A DNA stretch of 64,000 bases from Thermodesulfobium acidiphilum (GCF_003057965.1 NZ_CP020921.1:879001-943000), one strand, 5' to 3'; numbered from the stretch's first letter, positions 41,049 to 45,981 are shown. Program-made: numbers and translations. Notes: a model not told the origin generated them from the sequence alone.

Positions 41049-41213
41049 ATGCCAAAATCAATTAGAGCTATTATGTTAATTACCGTAGCCATACTTTTGA
41101 TAGTGGCTTTTTCATTTCCTTTTAGTCTTTACGTAAGAATCATTAGCACGTTGTTTTCAATATTCTTTATATATGTAGCGCTTTTCAAACCAAATATTTT
41201 TGAGAAATTTTAA
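41049..41213 (+). CDS. Small membrane protein, 54 residues
   Basis: A GGGAG site precedes an ATG and 54 codons. Two hydrophobic stretches (IMLITVAILLIVAFSFPF and ISTLFSIFFIYVALF) are linked by a short loop with arginine, so it should be a two-helix membrane hairpin ending in a charged tail. The family is not recognised. It is the only plus-strand gene between 29.3 and 51.5 kb, divergent from the thioredoxin reductase gene and convergent with a radical SAM gene one base away. Confidence 0.65.
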   Translation: MPKSIRAIMLITVAILLIVAFSFPFSLYVRIISTLFSIFFIYVALFKPNIFEKF

Positions 41214-41214
41214 A

Positions 41215-42276
41215 TCAAAAGATGCACTGAGGATCTTCATCTAAATATCTATCCTCTTTCCTTGTCGATAGAGCGAAACATACTGCCCTGCAGCCCCTAC
41301 ATTTCATAAATTCAGAACATTCCTTGCATTTTCCGAAATAATTTTCTTGATCCCTGAGCTTATTTAATACCTCAGAATTAGCCCATATCTCTCTAAATGA
41401 ATCTCTTCTTAGATTACCAAGAGGGATCTTTAGCCTCCTGCAAGGAACAAGGGTTGCATCGCTTAAAATAGTTATCCCTGCAAATCCTGCTGCGCACCCG
41501 CCAAAACCATAAGACGTATTGCAATCGATGTACAAGGAAGCAATAGGATCGCCTGTATTTACTTTAAAATCAGAAATCAAGTTATTTTCCTTAACAAAAT
41601 TATAAATAGATCTTAACTCTTCTTTGCTTAATATTAAATCCTTGCTATCTTGCGAGTGTCCAGTGGGTACCAGCCTTGAGAAGACCAGTCCACTAACTTG
41701 CAGACTTTTGGCAACTTGAAATAGATCCTGAAAAGATTCATAGTTAATTTTAGAAATTGTAGTGTTCAAAGTTACGTCAATTTCATTTTCTCTAAGGTTA
41801 TTTATGCCGATAACGGCTTTTTTAAATGAATCTTGACCCCTAATATAGTCATGAATTTTTTCAGGACCATCCAAACTGACCTGTACCCCAGATACGTGAA
41901 AATCTTTAAGCTTTCTTGCGACATCTTTGTCTATCAGAGTAGCATTGGTAAGTATATAGTACTCTATATGCTTTTTAGAAAAAAAATCTAAAATCTCTTC
42001 CCAATCTCTTCTTACAAAAACCTCTCCCCCTAATAAATTTATATTGGGCAGAAAAGCGATTTGAGACTTCTCTGCCCAATCATGAACTACTTCTAATATT
42101 TCTTCTGTGATGCCTTCAATTTCTTTCAGACTCATCTCATTGGATATTTCATTTTCTTGATAACAGTGCCTACAGTTCAAATTGCACCTTTCAGTGATGT
42201 GTATTTGAACTGTAAATGGAACGGTCATATTAGCTGCCAAACTGACAGCTACACGATCTCCTATCAGCTCTTTCAC
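41215..42276 (-). CDS. Radical SAM/SPASM enzyme A
   Basis: The 353-residue enzyme has the radical SAM cluster motif CNLNCRHC (residues 31-38) and GGEVFVRRDW, then a SPASM-type C terminus: VPCRRLKIPLGN, CKECSEFMKCRGC and a final DPQC, able to hold one or two auxiliary [4Fe-4S] clusters. Such enzymes modify ribosomal peptides or mature metalloenzymes, and PqqE, NirJ and AhbC/D share the plan. The GTG start overlaps the stop of a 34-codon peptide gene as GTGA, so both are translated together. It is about 50% similar by eye to enzyme B just upstream. Confidence 0.87.
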   Translation of the reverse strand: MKELIGDRVAVSLAANMTVPFTVQIHITERCNLNCRHCYQENEISNEMSLKEIEGITEEILEVVHDWAEKSQIAFLPNINLLGGEVFVRRDWEEILDFFSKKHIEYYILTNATLIDKDVARKLKDFHVSGVQVSLDGPEKIHDYIRGQDSFKKAVIGINNLRENEIDVTLNTTISKINYESFQDLFQVAKSLQVSGLVFSRLVPTGHSQDSKDLILSKEELRSIYNFVKENNLISDFKVNTGDPIASLYIDCNTSYGFGGCAAGFAGITILSDATLVPCRRLKIPLGNLRRDSFREIWANSEVLNKLRDQENYFGKCKECSEFMKCRGCRAVCFALSTRKEDRYLDEDPQCIF

Positions 42277-42377
42277 TTTCGGCAGACTTTTCCAGAACCT
42301 TTCTTAAGATTATCCTTAATCTTATTCCAGAAGTCTGTCTCTTTTTCAAGAGTCTTCTTATCAAACTCTTTCTTCAT
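42273..42377 (-). CDS. 34-residue peptide between two radical SAM enzymes (possible substrate peptide)
   Basis: ATG at 42375-42377 opens a 34-codon frame ending TGA within the GTG start of radical SAM enzyme A. The product begins MKKEFDKKTLEKETDFW, is rich in lysine (11) and acidic residues, looks like one amphipathic helix, and ends GSGKVCRK with a single cysteine (C32) after a GSG turn. Its ribosome site is an exact 12-base match to the 16S 3' end, the strongest in the window, as expected for an abundantly made precursor peptide. A leader-plus-short-core reading (core after GSG) is an inference; it could instead be a small protein partner. Confidence 0.6.
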   Translation of the reverse strand: MKKEFDKKTLEKETDFWNKIKDNLKKGSGKVCRK

Positions 42378-42380
42378 TTT

Positions 42381-42393
42381 TATCACCTCCTTT
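42381..42393 (-). promoter_or_regulatory. Exceptionally strong ribosome-binding site of the peptide gene
   Basis: Read on the minus strand, AAAGGAGGTGATA pairs over 12 bases with the standard bacterial 16S tail, and the GGAGG core is 8 nt from the ATG. It is internal to the korAB/radical SAM operon and would raise peptide output above that of the enzymes. Confidence 0.75.
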
Positions 42394-42417
42394 GTTATCC
42401 ATTATTTTATCAAAGAC

Positions 42418-43437
42418 TCAGCGAAAAAAGCACTGAGGGTCTTTGTCCAGCCAGCCCTGTTTATCTTTTGACAAAGAATACGCTATCGCCCTGCAACCCC
42501 TGCATATATTCCAATACAGGCAGCTGTTGCAGCCATTTTTATAGCTGTCCCTTTCCCTAAGAGATAGCAATACTTCATTATCAGACCAGATTTCTCTTAG
42601 ATCGTCTTTCAGTATATTTCCTAAAGAAATAGGCATCCTTCTACAGGGTACTATCTCACCATCAGACAGAACTGTTATGCTTGAGAATCCAGCCGAACAG
42701 CCGCCTACAGTATCTATCTTATCTTCGAACTCGTCATCCAGCACGCAAACTCCAAGGGGATCTTCTATCAACAATTCAAATGATGTTGTATTTTTTGCTT
42801 TCAATGCTAAATAGAATTCTTTCAGCTCTGAATTTGAAAGCATGTCGTCGCGCAGCTTTGAGCCACTGCCAATGGGGACCAATCTTGAAAATCCTAGGCC
42901 ATTCACTTTCCACTCATTTGAGATATTTATCAAATCATCTAAATCTTTATAATTTAGTTTTGATATGGTAGTTTTCAAAACTACTTTAAAGTTCTCTTCC
43001 TTCAGAAATTTTACTGCTTCTTTAACTTTCGAAAAAGTGCCATTTCCTCTAATACTATCATGGGTATCCTTACATCCTTCCAAGCTTATCTGAAATCCAT
43101 CAAATCTAAATTTTTTTAAATTAGGAATCATCTCTTTATCAATGAGAGTGCCATTTGTAAGAACATATGGCTCAATATCAATTTCGTTTAAAAATTTTAC
43201 AATTTCAAAAAAATCTTCTCTTAAAAATGGCTCGCCACCTGTTAGCTTTATTAGAAGGGGGATCTCGATATCATATTTAGTCTCCCATTCTTTGATTAAA
43301 TCTTTACTGTATGTGAAGAATTTTTTCCAATCGTCGAACTTTAGTTCACTTATTTGATTCTCTTGATAGCAGTGCTTACACCTAAGATTGCACCTCTCTG
43401 TAAGATGAGCCTGAATAAAAAAGTCAAACTTTAACAT
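42418..43437 (-). CDS. Radical SAM/SPASM enzyme B
   Basis: The 339-residue enzyme has CNLRCKHC (residues 16-23), the GGEPFLREDFF motif, and a SPASM-type C terminus with VPCRRMPISLGN, CNSCLYWNICRGC and a final DPQC. It is a paralog of enzyme A but lacks the 15-residue N-terminal extension. It begins 2 nt after the korB stop without a good ribosome site, so it is coupled to korB. The paired enzymes could act on the peptide between them or on a Kor-linked protein. Confidence 0.87.
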   Translation of the reverse strand: MLKFDFFIQAHLTERCNLRCKHCYQENQISELKFDDWKKFFTYSKDLIKEWETKYDIEIPLLIKLTGGEPFLREDFFEIVKFLNEIDIEPYVLTNGTLIDKEMIPNLKKFRFDGFQISLEGCKDTHDSIRGNGTFSKVKEAVKFLKEENFKVVLKTTISKLNYKDLDDLINISNEWKVNGLGFSRLVPIGSGSKLRDDMLSNSELKEFYLALKAKNTTSFELLIEDPLGVCVLDDEFEDKIDTVGGCSAGFSSITVLSDGEIVPCRRMPISLGNILKDDLREIWSDNEVLLSLRERDSYKNGCNSCLYWNICRGCRAIAYSLSKDKQGWLDKDPQCFFR

Positions 43438-43439
43438 AC

Positions 43440-44282
43440 TTAATCCATTAGAGATTTTATGTCAGGAAAATTTTGCATTGAAACAAGGGTTTTATCCTTT
43501 ATTACAGGAATATTTTTCTCAAAAGTTAGTCTTGAGTTAGAATAAAATACTCCTAAAGGTATTTTTTCGCCAAATTCTTGAGATTTTTCAAATGCTTTTA
43601 ATTTGTCAGAAAGATCATAGTCAGCATTGAATTCATAAACTCTATTCCTATACCATTCAAAATTATTGACCTTATTAAAGCTTACACATATTTGAAGTAT
43701 ATCAACCAGTGCAAAACCTTCGTGATTTATAGCCATTTTCATGATATTTTTAAGGTGTTCGGGACTTCCAGAAAAACTTCTTGCCACAAATGAACAATCC
43801 ATTGTAATAGCAAAAGCTATAGGGTTTAAAGGTTCAGAAAGAGAACCGAAAGGTTGAGCTTTTGTACGTCTACCAAATTCTGTAGTAGGAGAAGCCTGCC
43901 CCTTTGTTAGCCCATAAACAGCATTGTTATGAACAAAAAGCGTTATATTTGGGTTTCTTCTAAATGCGTGCAAGAGATGATTTCCACCCTCGCCGTAAGT
44001 ATCACCATCTCCACCAAAAATTATTACCTTTTGTTTGTGATTGGCCACGCTAATCCCAGTAGCCACTGGCAGAGATCTTCCGTGCAGACCGTTGAAGCCA
44101 TTGCATTTTAGATAGTGCGGCAATTTGCTTGATTGACCTATTCCTGAAACTAATGTAATTTCATGCGGTTCAATTCCTAACTCAAATAATGCCTTCTTAA
44201 AAGAATCTAAAATAGCAAAGTTACCGCAACCAGGACACCAAGCTGGAACTGTATCGTTATCAAAACCTTTATAAGATCGCAT
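43440..44282 (-). CDS. korB: 2-oxoacid:ferredoxin oxidoreductase, beta subunit
   Basis: The 280-residue thiamine-diphosphate subunit carries CPGCGN near the N terminus (cluster ligand region), the TPP/Mg motif GGDGDTYGEGG and VHNNAVYGLTKGQ. The start at 44280-44282 is chosen because GGAGG lies upstream; the longer open frame runs into korA. It overlaps the korA end by 14 nt. Substrate is likely 2-oxoglutarate or another 2-oxoacid. Confidence 0.92.
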   Translation of the reverse strand: MRSYKGFDNDTVPAWCPGCGNFAILDSFKKALFELGIEPHEITLVSGIGQSSKLPHYLKCNGFNGLHGRSLPVATGISVANHKQKVIIFGGDGDTYGEGGNHLLHAFRRNPNITLFVHNNAVYGLTKGQASPTTEFGRRTKAQPFGSLSEPLNPIAFAITMDCSFVARSFSGSPEHLKNIMKMAINHEGFALVDILQICVSFNKVNNFEWYRNRVYEFNADYDLSDKLKAFEKSQEFGEKIPLGVFYSNSRLTFEKNIPVIKDKTLVSMQNFPDIKSLMD

Positions 44283-45981
44283 AAATATCCTCCAAAACCT
44301 CCTCGTAATTAAAAGGTCTACCATCGTACTTTCTAATGTAGTGTGAAAATTTAAAACCATATTCTGACTCAACTAGTTTTTGAAACTGTCCAGATGCGTT
44401 ATTTTCAATACAAATAGATAAATTAGACTTTGATATTATATTTAGAAATTCATAAGAATTTTCCCTTATTGGAAGCGGAAACACCTCACTAAAGTGTATA
44501 GCACACACTGATATTTTCTTGTTATTTACAATTTCTCTAAGGATTCCAAGATTTGACCCAAATCCAACTAAAACAATTTTCGAGTCTTTGTTACCATAAA
44601 ATTTTGGAGGAGATATATATTTTCTAATATTTTCAATTTTCCAAAAATATCTTCTCTCAAGCATTTTTTTTCTTATTTCTCCATCTTCAGTTATATGACC
44701 TACTTCATCGTGCTCATCACTATCTGTAAATACCAACTGTTTACTATCTCCTGGAACAGCTAAAGGAGTAAGAGGATTGCTCTTATTAAAGTCTAAAAAT
44801 TTATGTCTTTTATAATCTTGATAATTTTCAAAATCTGTCGATCTTAGTCTATAATCTCTGTTTTTTAACTCTATTTTAAGATCTTTTTTATAAGAATATA
44901 GGGAATCTACAAGATGTTGATCTGTTAAAATAATAGCTGGAATCTGATATTTTTCTGCTAGATCAAAAGCTTTGTTTGTAAGATGTATACATTCAAAAGG
45001 ATCTCCAGGAGCAAAGACAATTCTCGGAAACTCTCCATGCCCAGCATGAATAGCATAAAGTAATTCACCTTGCTCGGTCCTGGTAGGAAAACCCGTTGCT
45101 GGGCCTGGGCGTTGAGATAACAAAATTACTATCGGAGTTTCTGTCATCCCAGAAAGAGATAATGCTTCATTCATAAGCGCAAAGCCTCCTCCAGAAGTTC
45201 CAGTCATAGCTCTAACTCCTGCAAATGATGCTCCAATTGCCATATTAATAGCACTTATTTCATCTTCTGCTTGCTCTACTACAATGTTAAATTTTTTAGC
45301 ATGTTCCCCAATATATTGAAATACTCCAGTAGAAGGTGTCATGGGATATGCAGAATAAAATTTACAACCTGAACCTATAGCACCTATACCTATCCCCCTT
45401 ATACCACTCAACAAAATTTTTTCCTCACTATTTGAAGCTGGCAAATTTATTTTTTTCTTCATATCAAAATCGTATCCAATATCAACTGCTTTCATATTTT
45501 GTTCTATTATCTCATCAGGCTTATTAACAAAGATGTCGTGGATAACTTTATAAACGTATTTTTTATCAATTGAAAAAATATTTGCTATCAAAGCAAAAGA
45601 AACAATGTTTTCATATATATTTTTTAAGCCTGCATTTTTTAATAATTCTCTAAAAGGACAGTTTATAAACCTTTCGTCGTATTCGTTTTGTTTAAGAGAA
45701 TTAGCATCATAAATAACAATACCATTATTTCGAAGTAAGTTCTTATATTCTAAACCCTTCTTATCAAAAGTAAGAACTAAATCTAAAAATTTCTTAGGGG
45801 CAAAAATCTCATCTGTGCCAAAAGTTATCTGATAAAAGTTGTGACCCCCTCTTATCCTTGACTCATAATCCTGAAAGGAGAAGACGTTATAGCCCAAAGA
45901 GCTAAACAGTCTTGAAAATCCCTCTCCTGTAGTTTGAATGCCTTGACCTGCTTCGCCACATATTCTTATAGTGTAATTCAC
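44269..45981 (-). CDS. korA: 2-oxoacid:ferredoxin oxidoreductase, fused gamma-alpha subunit
   Basis: The 570-residue protein joins the gamma domain (about 1-180, GEAGQGIQTTGEGFSRLF) to the alpha domain (about 190-570, GSGCKFYSAYPMTPSTG, TGTSGGGFALMNEALSLSG). With KorB it oxidatively decarboxylates a 2-oxoacid to acyl-CoA, or runs in reverse for CO2 fixation, passing electrons to ferredoxin. The start is GTG after GGGAGGG. It heads the operon korA-korB-radical SAM B-peptide-radical SAM A. Confidence 0.93.
   Translation of the reverse strand: MNYTIRICGEAGQGIQTTGEGFSRLFSSLGYNVFSFQDYESRIRGGHNFYQITFGTDEIFAPKKFLDLVLTFDKKGLEYKNLLRNNGIVIYDANSLKQNEYDERFINCPFRELLKNAGLKNIYENIVSFALIANIFSIDKKYVYKVIHDIFVNKPDEIIEQNMKAVDIGYDFDMKKKINLPASNSEEKILLSGIRGIGIGAIGSGCKFYSAYPMTPSTGVFQYIGEHAKKFNIVVEQAEDEISAINMAIGASFAGVRAMTGTSGGGFALMNEALSLSGMTETPIVILLSQRPGPATGFPTRTEQGELLYAIHAGHGEFPRIVFAPGDPFECIHLTNKAFDLAEKYQIPAIILTDQHLVDSLYSYKKDLKIELKNRDYRLRSTDFENYQDYKRHKFLDFNKSNPLTPLAVPGDSKQLVFTDSDEHDEVGHITEDGEIRKKMLERRYFWKIENIRKYISPPKFYGNKDSKIVLVGFGSNLGILREIVNNKKISVCAIHFSEVFPLPIRENSYEFLNIISKSNLSICIENNASGQFQKLVESEYGFKFSHYIRKYDGRPFNYEEVLEDIYAIL

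Follow-up and report, generated by a model that had tools for sequence, protein, structure and literature searches.

A candidate family of selenocysteine-containing precursor peptides encoded beside radical SAM/SPASM enzymes in Thermodesulfobium

What does the short reading frame between two radical SAM/SPASM genes of the sulfate-reducing bacterium Thermodesulfobium acidiphilum encode, and is its product the substrate of one of these enzymes? The frame lies on the minus strand of the window, as we call the whole 64,000-nucleotide stretch analyzed (NZ_CP020921.1:879001-943000), in a closed 1.77 Mb genome (G000) whose phylum comprises four genomes, all of one genus (G000, G001, G002, and G003). 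The initial annotation described korA, korB, a radical SAM gene (B), the short frame, and a second radical SAM gene (A) as running in one direction, with 2 nt between korB and B and a 12-base match to the anti-Shine-Dalgarno sequence. All of these parts are found in that layout (Table 1), the coordinates bear out the 2-nt gap, and the 12-mer AAAGGAGGTGAT lies 4 nt 5′ of the ATG at 42377. The reading that we favor, at a probability of about 0.8 and from sequence comparison, is that the frame specifies a new family of precursor peptides that contain selenocysteine (Sec) and are modified by enzyme A.

Table 1. Coordinates of the features of the locus within the window
Feature	Position	Strand	Evidence
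korA, fused alpha/gamma subunit of a 2-oxoacid:ferredoxin oxidoreductase	44269..45981	-	TIGR03710, 588 bits (cut-off 483); Pfam POR_N and POR
korB, thiamine-diphosphate beta subunit	about 43440..44282	-	TIGR02177, 355 bits (cut-off 262)
Enzyme B, radical SAM/SPASM	42418..43437	-	Pfam Radical_SAM 86 bits, SPASM 42 bits; apparent paralogue in tree, so far this genus only
Shine-Dalgarno sequence of peptide gene, AAAGGAGGTGAT	42382..42393	-	Sequence; AAAGGAGGTGA kept in 4/4 genus genomes
Peptide gene, 37 codons and stop if UGA is read as Sec	42264..42377	-	Purifying selection; homologues in two other phyla; tail comparison
UGA, proposed Sec codon in C-R-K-U motif	42273..42275	-	UGA in 4/4 genus genomes and both homologues; Cys aligned in relatives
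SECIS-like hairpin, UAGCUGUC-AGUUU-GGCAGCUA	42231..42251	-	Inside enzyme A coding start; a double change, C-G to U-A, preserves pairing
Enzyme A, radical SAM/SPASM, proposed peptide maturase	41215..42276	-	Pfam; orthologues directly 3′ of peptide gene in three phyla

The short gene and its homologues

All four genomes of the genus have the short frame and the gene order korA-korB-B-peptide-A, with adjoining genes overlapping or only narrowly spaced (the G002 contig ends inside A). Between G000 and G001, the widest comparison available, its codon changes are 13 synonymous and 2 nonsynonymous, and 13 of the 15 base changes fall at third positions. Because the changes are almost exclusively synonymous and both the frame and the gene order persist in four genomes, the short frame is, by its pattern of sequence change, a real gene and no chance ORF.

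Homologues occur in two other phyla. Using a profile of A and B, we found in G288, from a phylum of two genomes, the peptide MKKSLTPAARELEAAHWTALKKALTEKTVKVCRK-UGA-SS directly before an enzyme A orthologue; it has 34 codons before the UGA, the same length as in the host, a strong Shine-Dalgarno sequence, and the same KVCRK ending (tail KVCRKUSS). A second sampling yielded G494, where MQKWLTDEARKREEEYWTTLKKAISNQPVKACRK-UGA-NG (tail KACRKUNG) likewise directly precedes an enzyme A orthologue on a 5-kb contig. The three peptides share M1, K3, E13, W17, K21, K30, C32, R33, and K34, and the ungapped score of each pair was reached by none of 100,000 shuffles. The initial annotation had asked whether a short ORF adjoins enzyme A homologues elsewhere, and held that loci devoid of the ORF or of conserved residues in it would speak against a substrate role. 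The ORF is in fact paired with an enzyme-A-type gene in three phyla, as is typical of a RiPP precursor and its maturase, and its residues are conserved. The GSGxxC-type tail expected there survives in part: a Cys-containing tail is conserved in the three phyla, the GSG is not, and the constant portion is K-[VA]-C-R-K-U.

The survey of the family's spread covered about 1270 genome scans, some overlapping, and phylum-level searches around G288 and G131 with few genomes in each. A DNA pattern for KVCRK followed by a stop matched in 19 genomes, three of which (G288 and two of the genus) have a Shine-Dalgarno-led ORF of fitting length; the matches in the other 16 lack one and were set aside as chance. 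Viral contigs gave a single 26-residue match and plasmids none, and no Pfam or NCBIfam model matches either the host-type peptides or those of the sister family introduced below. Ordinary gene callers stop at UGA and drop or shorten genes of this kind, so the CRKU family is probably under-counted.

The in-frame UGA

The initial annotation closed the peptide at residue 34, on a UGA, and this is probably incomplete. The codon after K34 is UGA in all six members (the four genus genomes, G288, and G494), which is the conservation in homologues expected of a bacterial selenoprotein, and in every member the next stop comes exactly two codons later (U-K-S, U-S-S, or U-N-G). It is very likely, from these comparisons and those that follow, that Sec is inserted at this codon. 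Read-through would most likely give the 37-residue product MKKEFDKKTLEKETDFWNKIKDNLKKGSGKVCRKUKS, which would end Cys-Arg-Lys-Sec-Lys-Ser and carry a CxxU motif, C-R-K-U.

A competing account takes the UGA as an ordinary stop, with enzyme A modifying a 34-residue peptide that has one Cys and the downstream hairpin serving to couple the peptide and enzyme genes. The GTG of enzyme A (42276) does overlap the UGA (42275-42273) in the usual four-base coupling arrangement, as the initial annotation reported of the peptide's stop (the overlap stands; the codon is very probably one for Sec), and the 34 residues are well conserved by themselves. We nevertheless consider this account unlikely, on three grounds: (i) all six members use UGA, never UAA or UAG, whereas of the 1511 long ORFs in G000 only 342 end in UGA; (ii) relatives have either Cys at this position or a conserved KECK beyond it; and (iii) G288 and G494, whose enzyme genes start more than 100 nt away, also have hairpins at SECIS distance.

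The second of these grounds comes from a sister family of peptides. One locus in G162 has both DLCYS-C-KSCK and DSCYS-UGA-KECK, each closed by UAA; G301, G397, and G398 have DSCYS/A-UGA-KECK forms that retain KECK after the UGA; and Cys occupies the UGA position in G387 (ICRQ-C-SS) and G004 (VCRQ-C-SG). The exchange of Cys for Sec is clear within the sister family and extends to the CRKU family through the similarity of its tail to those of G387 and G004. Coding conservation downstream of the UGA is weak in the CRKU family because only two codons follow, and in this genus the same bases also encode enzyme A.

The nine UGAs examined are each followed, at 20-31 nt, by a short hairpin whose apical loop contains G and U (9/9). 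Of the 342 long G000 ORFs that end in UGA, 24 (7%) satisfy the same rule at their stop, and none reaches the score of 8.5 given to the G000 peptide hairpin. Every stem substitution among the genus genomes preserves base pairing (U-G to U-A and the double change listed in Table 1 among them), while the overlapping N-terminus of enzyme A varies (AVSLAAN versus VVSLTTN). An Rfam search of the locus returned weak, unrelated matches only.

G000 encodes tRNA-Sec with an adjoining SelB gene (365 bits), SelA (532 bits), and SelD (332 bits), and among G000, G288, and G494 the selA/selB/selC/selD set is confirmed in G000 only. SelD itself contains an in-frame UGA (CAGUAAKL; L178 12036-13097, G000 1501936-1502997), so that an ordinary gene call would cut it short. 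This UGA is followed by a like hairpin, and the hairpin scan recovered the gene; under loose rules the selenoprotein scan also picked up two candidates that are probably false. For a Thermodesulfobium genome, deep-Sep reports four genes of known selenoproteins (PMC12013277).

Proposed substrate, enzymes, and neighboring genes

From these features we infer the following course of events in the cell. The ribosome would read the UGA as Sec by means of tRNA-Sec, SelB, and the SECIS hairpin, yielding a peptide composed of a helix-prone, leader-like part of 29 residues (with the constant E13, W17, and K21) and the tail K30-V-C32-R-K-U35-K-S. Enzyme A would bind the leader-like part and, using a 5′-deoxyadenosyl radical and its SPASM clusters, alter the Cys-x-x-Sec tail; SPASM maturases and SbtM (PMC11002830) suggest, as analogues, a thioether, a selenoether, or a thio(seleno)oxazole as the obvious products. 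Ribosomes that stop at the UGA could restart on A, and those that insert Sec would make the full precursor; the maturase start overlaps the Sec codon in this genus, an arrangement suggestive of competition between Sec read-through and maturase expression. The G494 locus has a terminator-like hairpin between the peptide and enzyme genes, of a kind commonly matched by chance, which would favor more peptide than enzyme.

Both enzymes have the CX3CX2C motif and the SPASM cysteines, and both exceed the Pfam Radical_SAM and SPASM cut-offs. The tree gives moderate support to a group of A, B, and the G288 and G494 enzymes (89/87), within which the latter two join A (90/87) and B falls outside; hence the A type is the one that accompanies the peptide, and B has the look, by sequence, of an additional paralogue. 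We would guess that B, in this genus, performs a second step. Near its end (42418-42450 of the window) the B gene has one T more than in the other three genomes, which gives a shorter C-terminus (FFR in place of FFAESLIK). The best NCBIfam match of A is AhbD, at 173 bits, and might be taken to mark A and B as enzymes of a heme pathway, of the AhbC/AhbD or NirJ type. This is hardly credible: the AhbD cut-off is 500, neither enzyme qualifies for the AhbC, AhbD, or NirJ families, and an AhbC-like/AhbD-like pair is encoded with HemB elsewhere in the genome and belongs to another branch of the tree.

The constant order of the operon in the four genus genomes, with its overlaps and tiny gaps, would also suit A and B as maturases of KorAB or some other metalloenzyme, the peptide being an accessory or regulatory ORF. 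We judge this very unlikely, given that, alongside enzyme A, the peptide shows the evolution of a conserved protein, and that the pairs in G288 and G494 have no korAB beside them (on a contig of only 5 kb in the case of G494). Each of these two genomes has a single enzyme at its locus, and in G288 a KorA is encoded on the same contig about 20 kb from the pair. We therefore do not regard KorAB as a general partner of the peptide and its enzyme. The link to a 2-oxoacid:ferredoxin oxidoreductase that the initial annotation suggested is unproven as a general one, since KorAB and enzyme B adjoin the pair in this genus only. Under our preferred reading, in which A is the maturase of a Sec peptide, KorAB might supply reduced ferredoxin to the radical SAM enzymes or work with their product; this too is a guess.

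The host locus has no gene for a PqqD/RRE protein, a protease, or an exporter, features that are common, though not universal, in RiPP loci. The one PqqD-like gene of G000 was rejected as a partner, being far off at 793.8 kb; its neighbors include genes for an oligopeptide transporter and a peptidase but none for a radical SAM protein (L083 5152-5505). Enzyme A is followed in this genus by a gene for a thioredoxin-reductase-like flavoprotein, and in G288 a co-directional gene for a dihydrolipoyl-dehydrogenase-like flavoprotein ends about 48 nt before the peptide gene (L045 4489-5859). These neighbors fit a redox role and may be coincidence. Between A and the thioredoxin-reductase-like gene, a plus-strand ORF (window 41049-41213), conserved in G003 and G001, encodes a 54-residue membrane protein.

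Relation to known peptide systems

To our knowledge, Sec in peptides modified by radical SAM enzymes has been described for one system, SbtA/SbtM, which judged by sequence is also the nearest precedent for the locus. There, according to PMC11002830 and PMC13188914, a UGA in a small peptide gene (selenobacteriocin; TIGR04081 for the peptide, TIGR04082 for the maturase) is followed closely by a SECIS and adjoined by the gene of a radical SAM/SPASM maturase. Among the Sec peptides in the 2026 inventory of prokaryotic selenoproteins is selenobacteriocin, TIGR04081 (PMC13188914). The present proteins fall outside that system: against an SbtM cut-off of 350, A scores 114, B 159, and the G288 enzyme 149 bits; the peptide, submitted with U as C, has no match to the SbtA model at E up to 10; the tail is CxxU here and SGUG there; and the enzymes here lack the N-terminal domain. 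The ACGX system (TIGR04340) employs a radical SAM/SPASM enzyme that belongs, broadly, with A and B, yet these reach 153 and 168 bits, respectively, against its cut-off of 400, and the peptide has no ACGX repeats.

PQQ and mycofactocin likewise join a short peptide to a radical SAM/SPASM enzyme, and as peptide-derived redox cofactors they offer an analogy. They differ in that Sec stands here in place of Glu-Tyr or Val-Tyr, that no PqqE or MftC match exceeds its cut-off, and that the host locus has no PqqD or MftB. One could imagine the matured Cys-x-x-Sec peptide as the selenium equivalent of PQQ or mycofactocin, a diffusible redox cofactor in electron exchange with flavin disulfide reductases and with the 2-oxoacid:ferredoxin oxidoreductase encoded in the same operon; we think this rather unlikely.

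A literature search of partial coverage found no description of the CRKU peptide family, which is weak evidence of novelty. If our reading is correct, the family adds a second, unrelated-looking group of Sec precursors, present in three phyla, and with it a sister family in which Cys and Sec replace each other; the peptide and enzyme A form a directly testable pair of substrate and enzyme.

The sister family (G162, G301, G397, G398, G387, and G004) resembles the host system in its enzymes, which form the sister group (99/97 split), in its Cys-x-x-Sec/Cys tail, and, in several members, in having a UGA with a SECIS-like hairpin. It is unlike the host in having a PqqD-like gene at most loci, a leader with EIPAEEFY, and a longer tail. 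Its peptide genes lie at L046 2442-2561, 3618-3737, and 5470-5589, L048 5564-5683, L086 4642-4803, and L102 1036-1158, and of the three copies in the G162 locus, two have Cys and one has UGA. Peroxiredoxin genes stand next to, and divergent from, two of the radical SAM genes considered here (L107 2259-2768 and L048 3638-4144).
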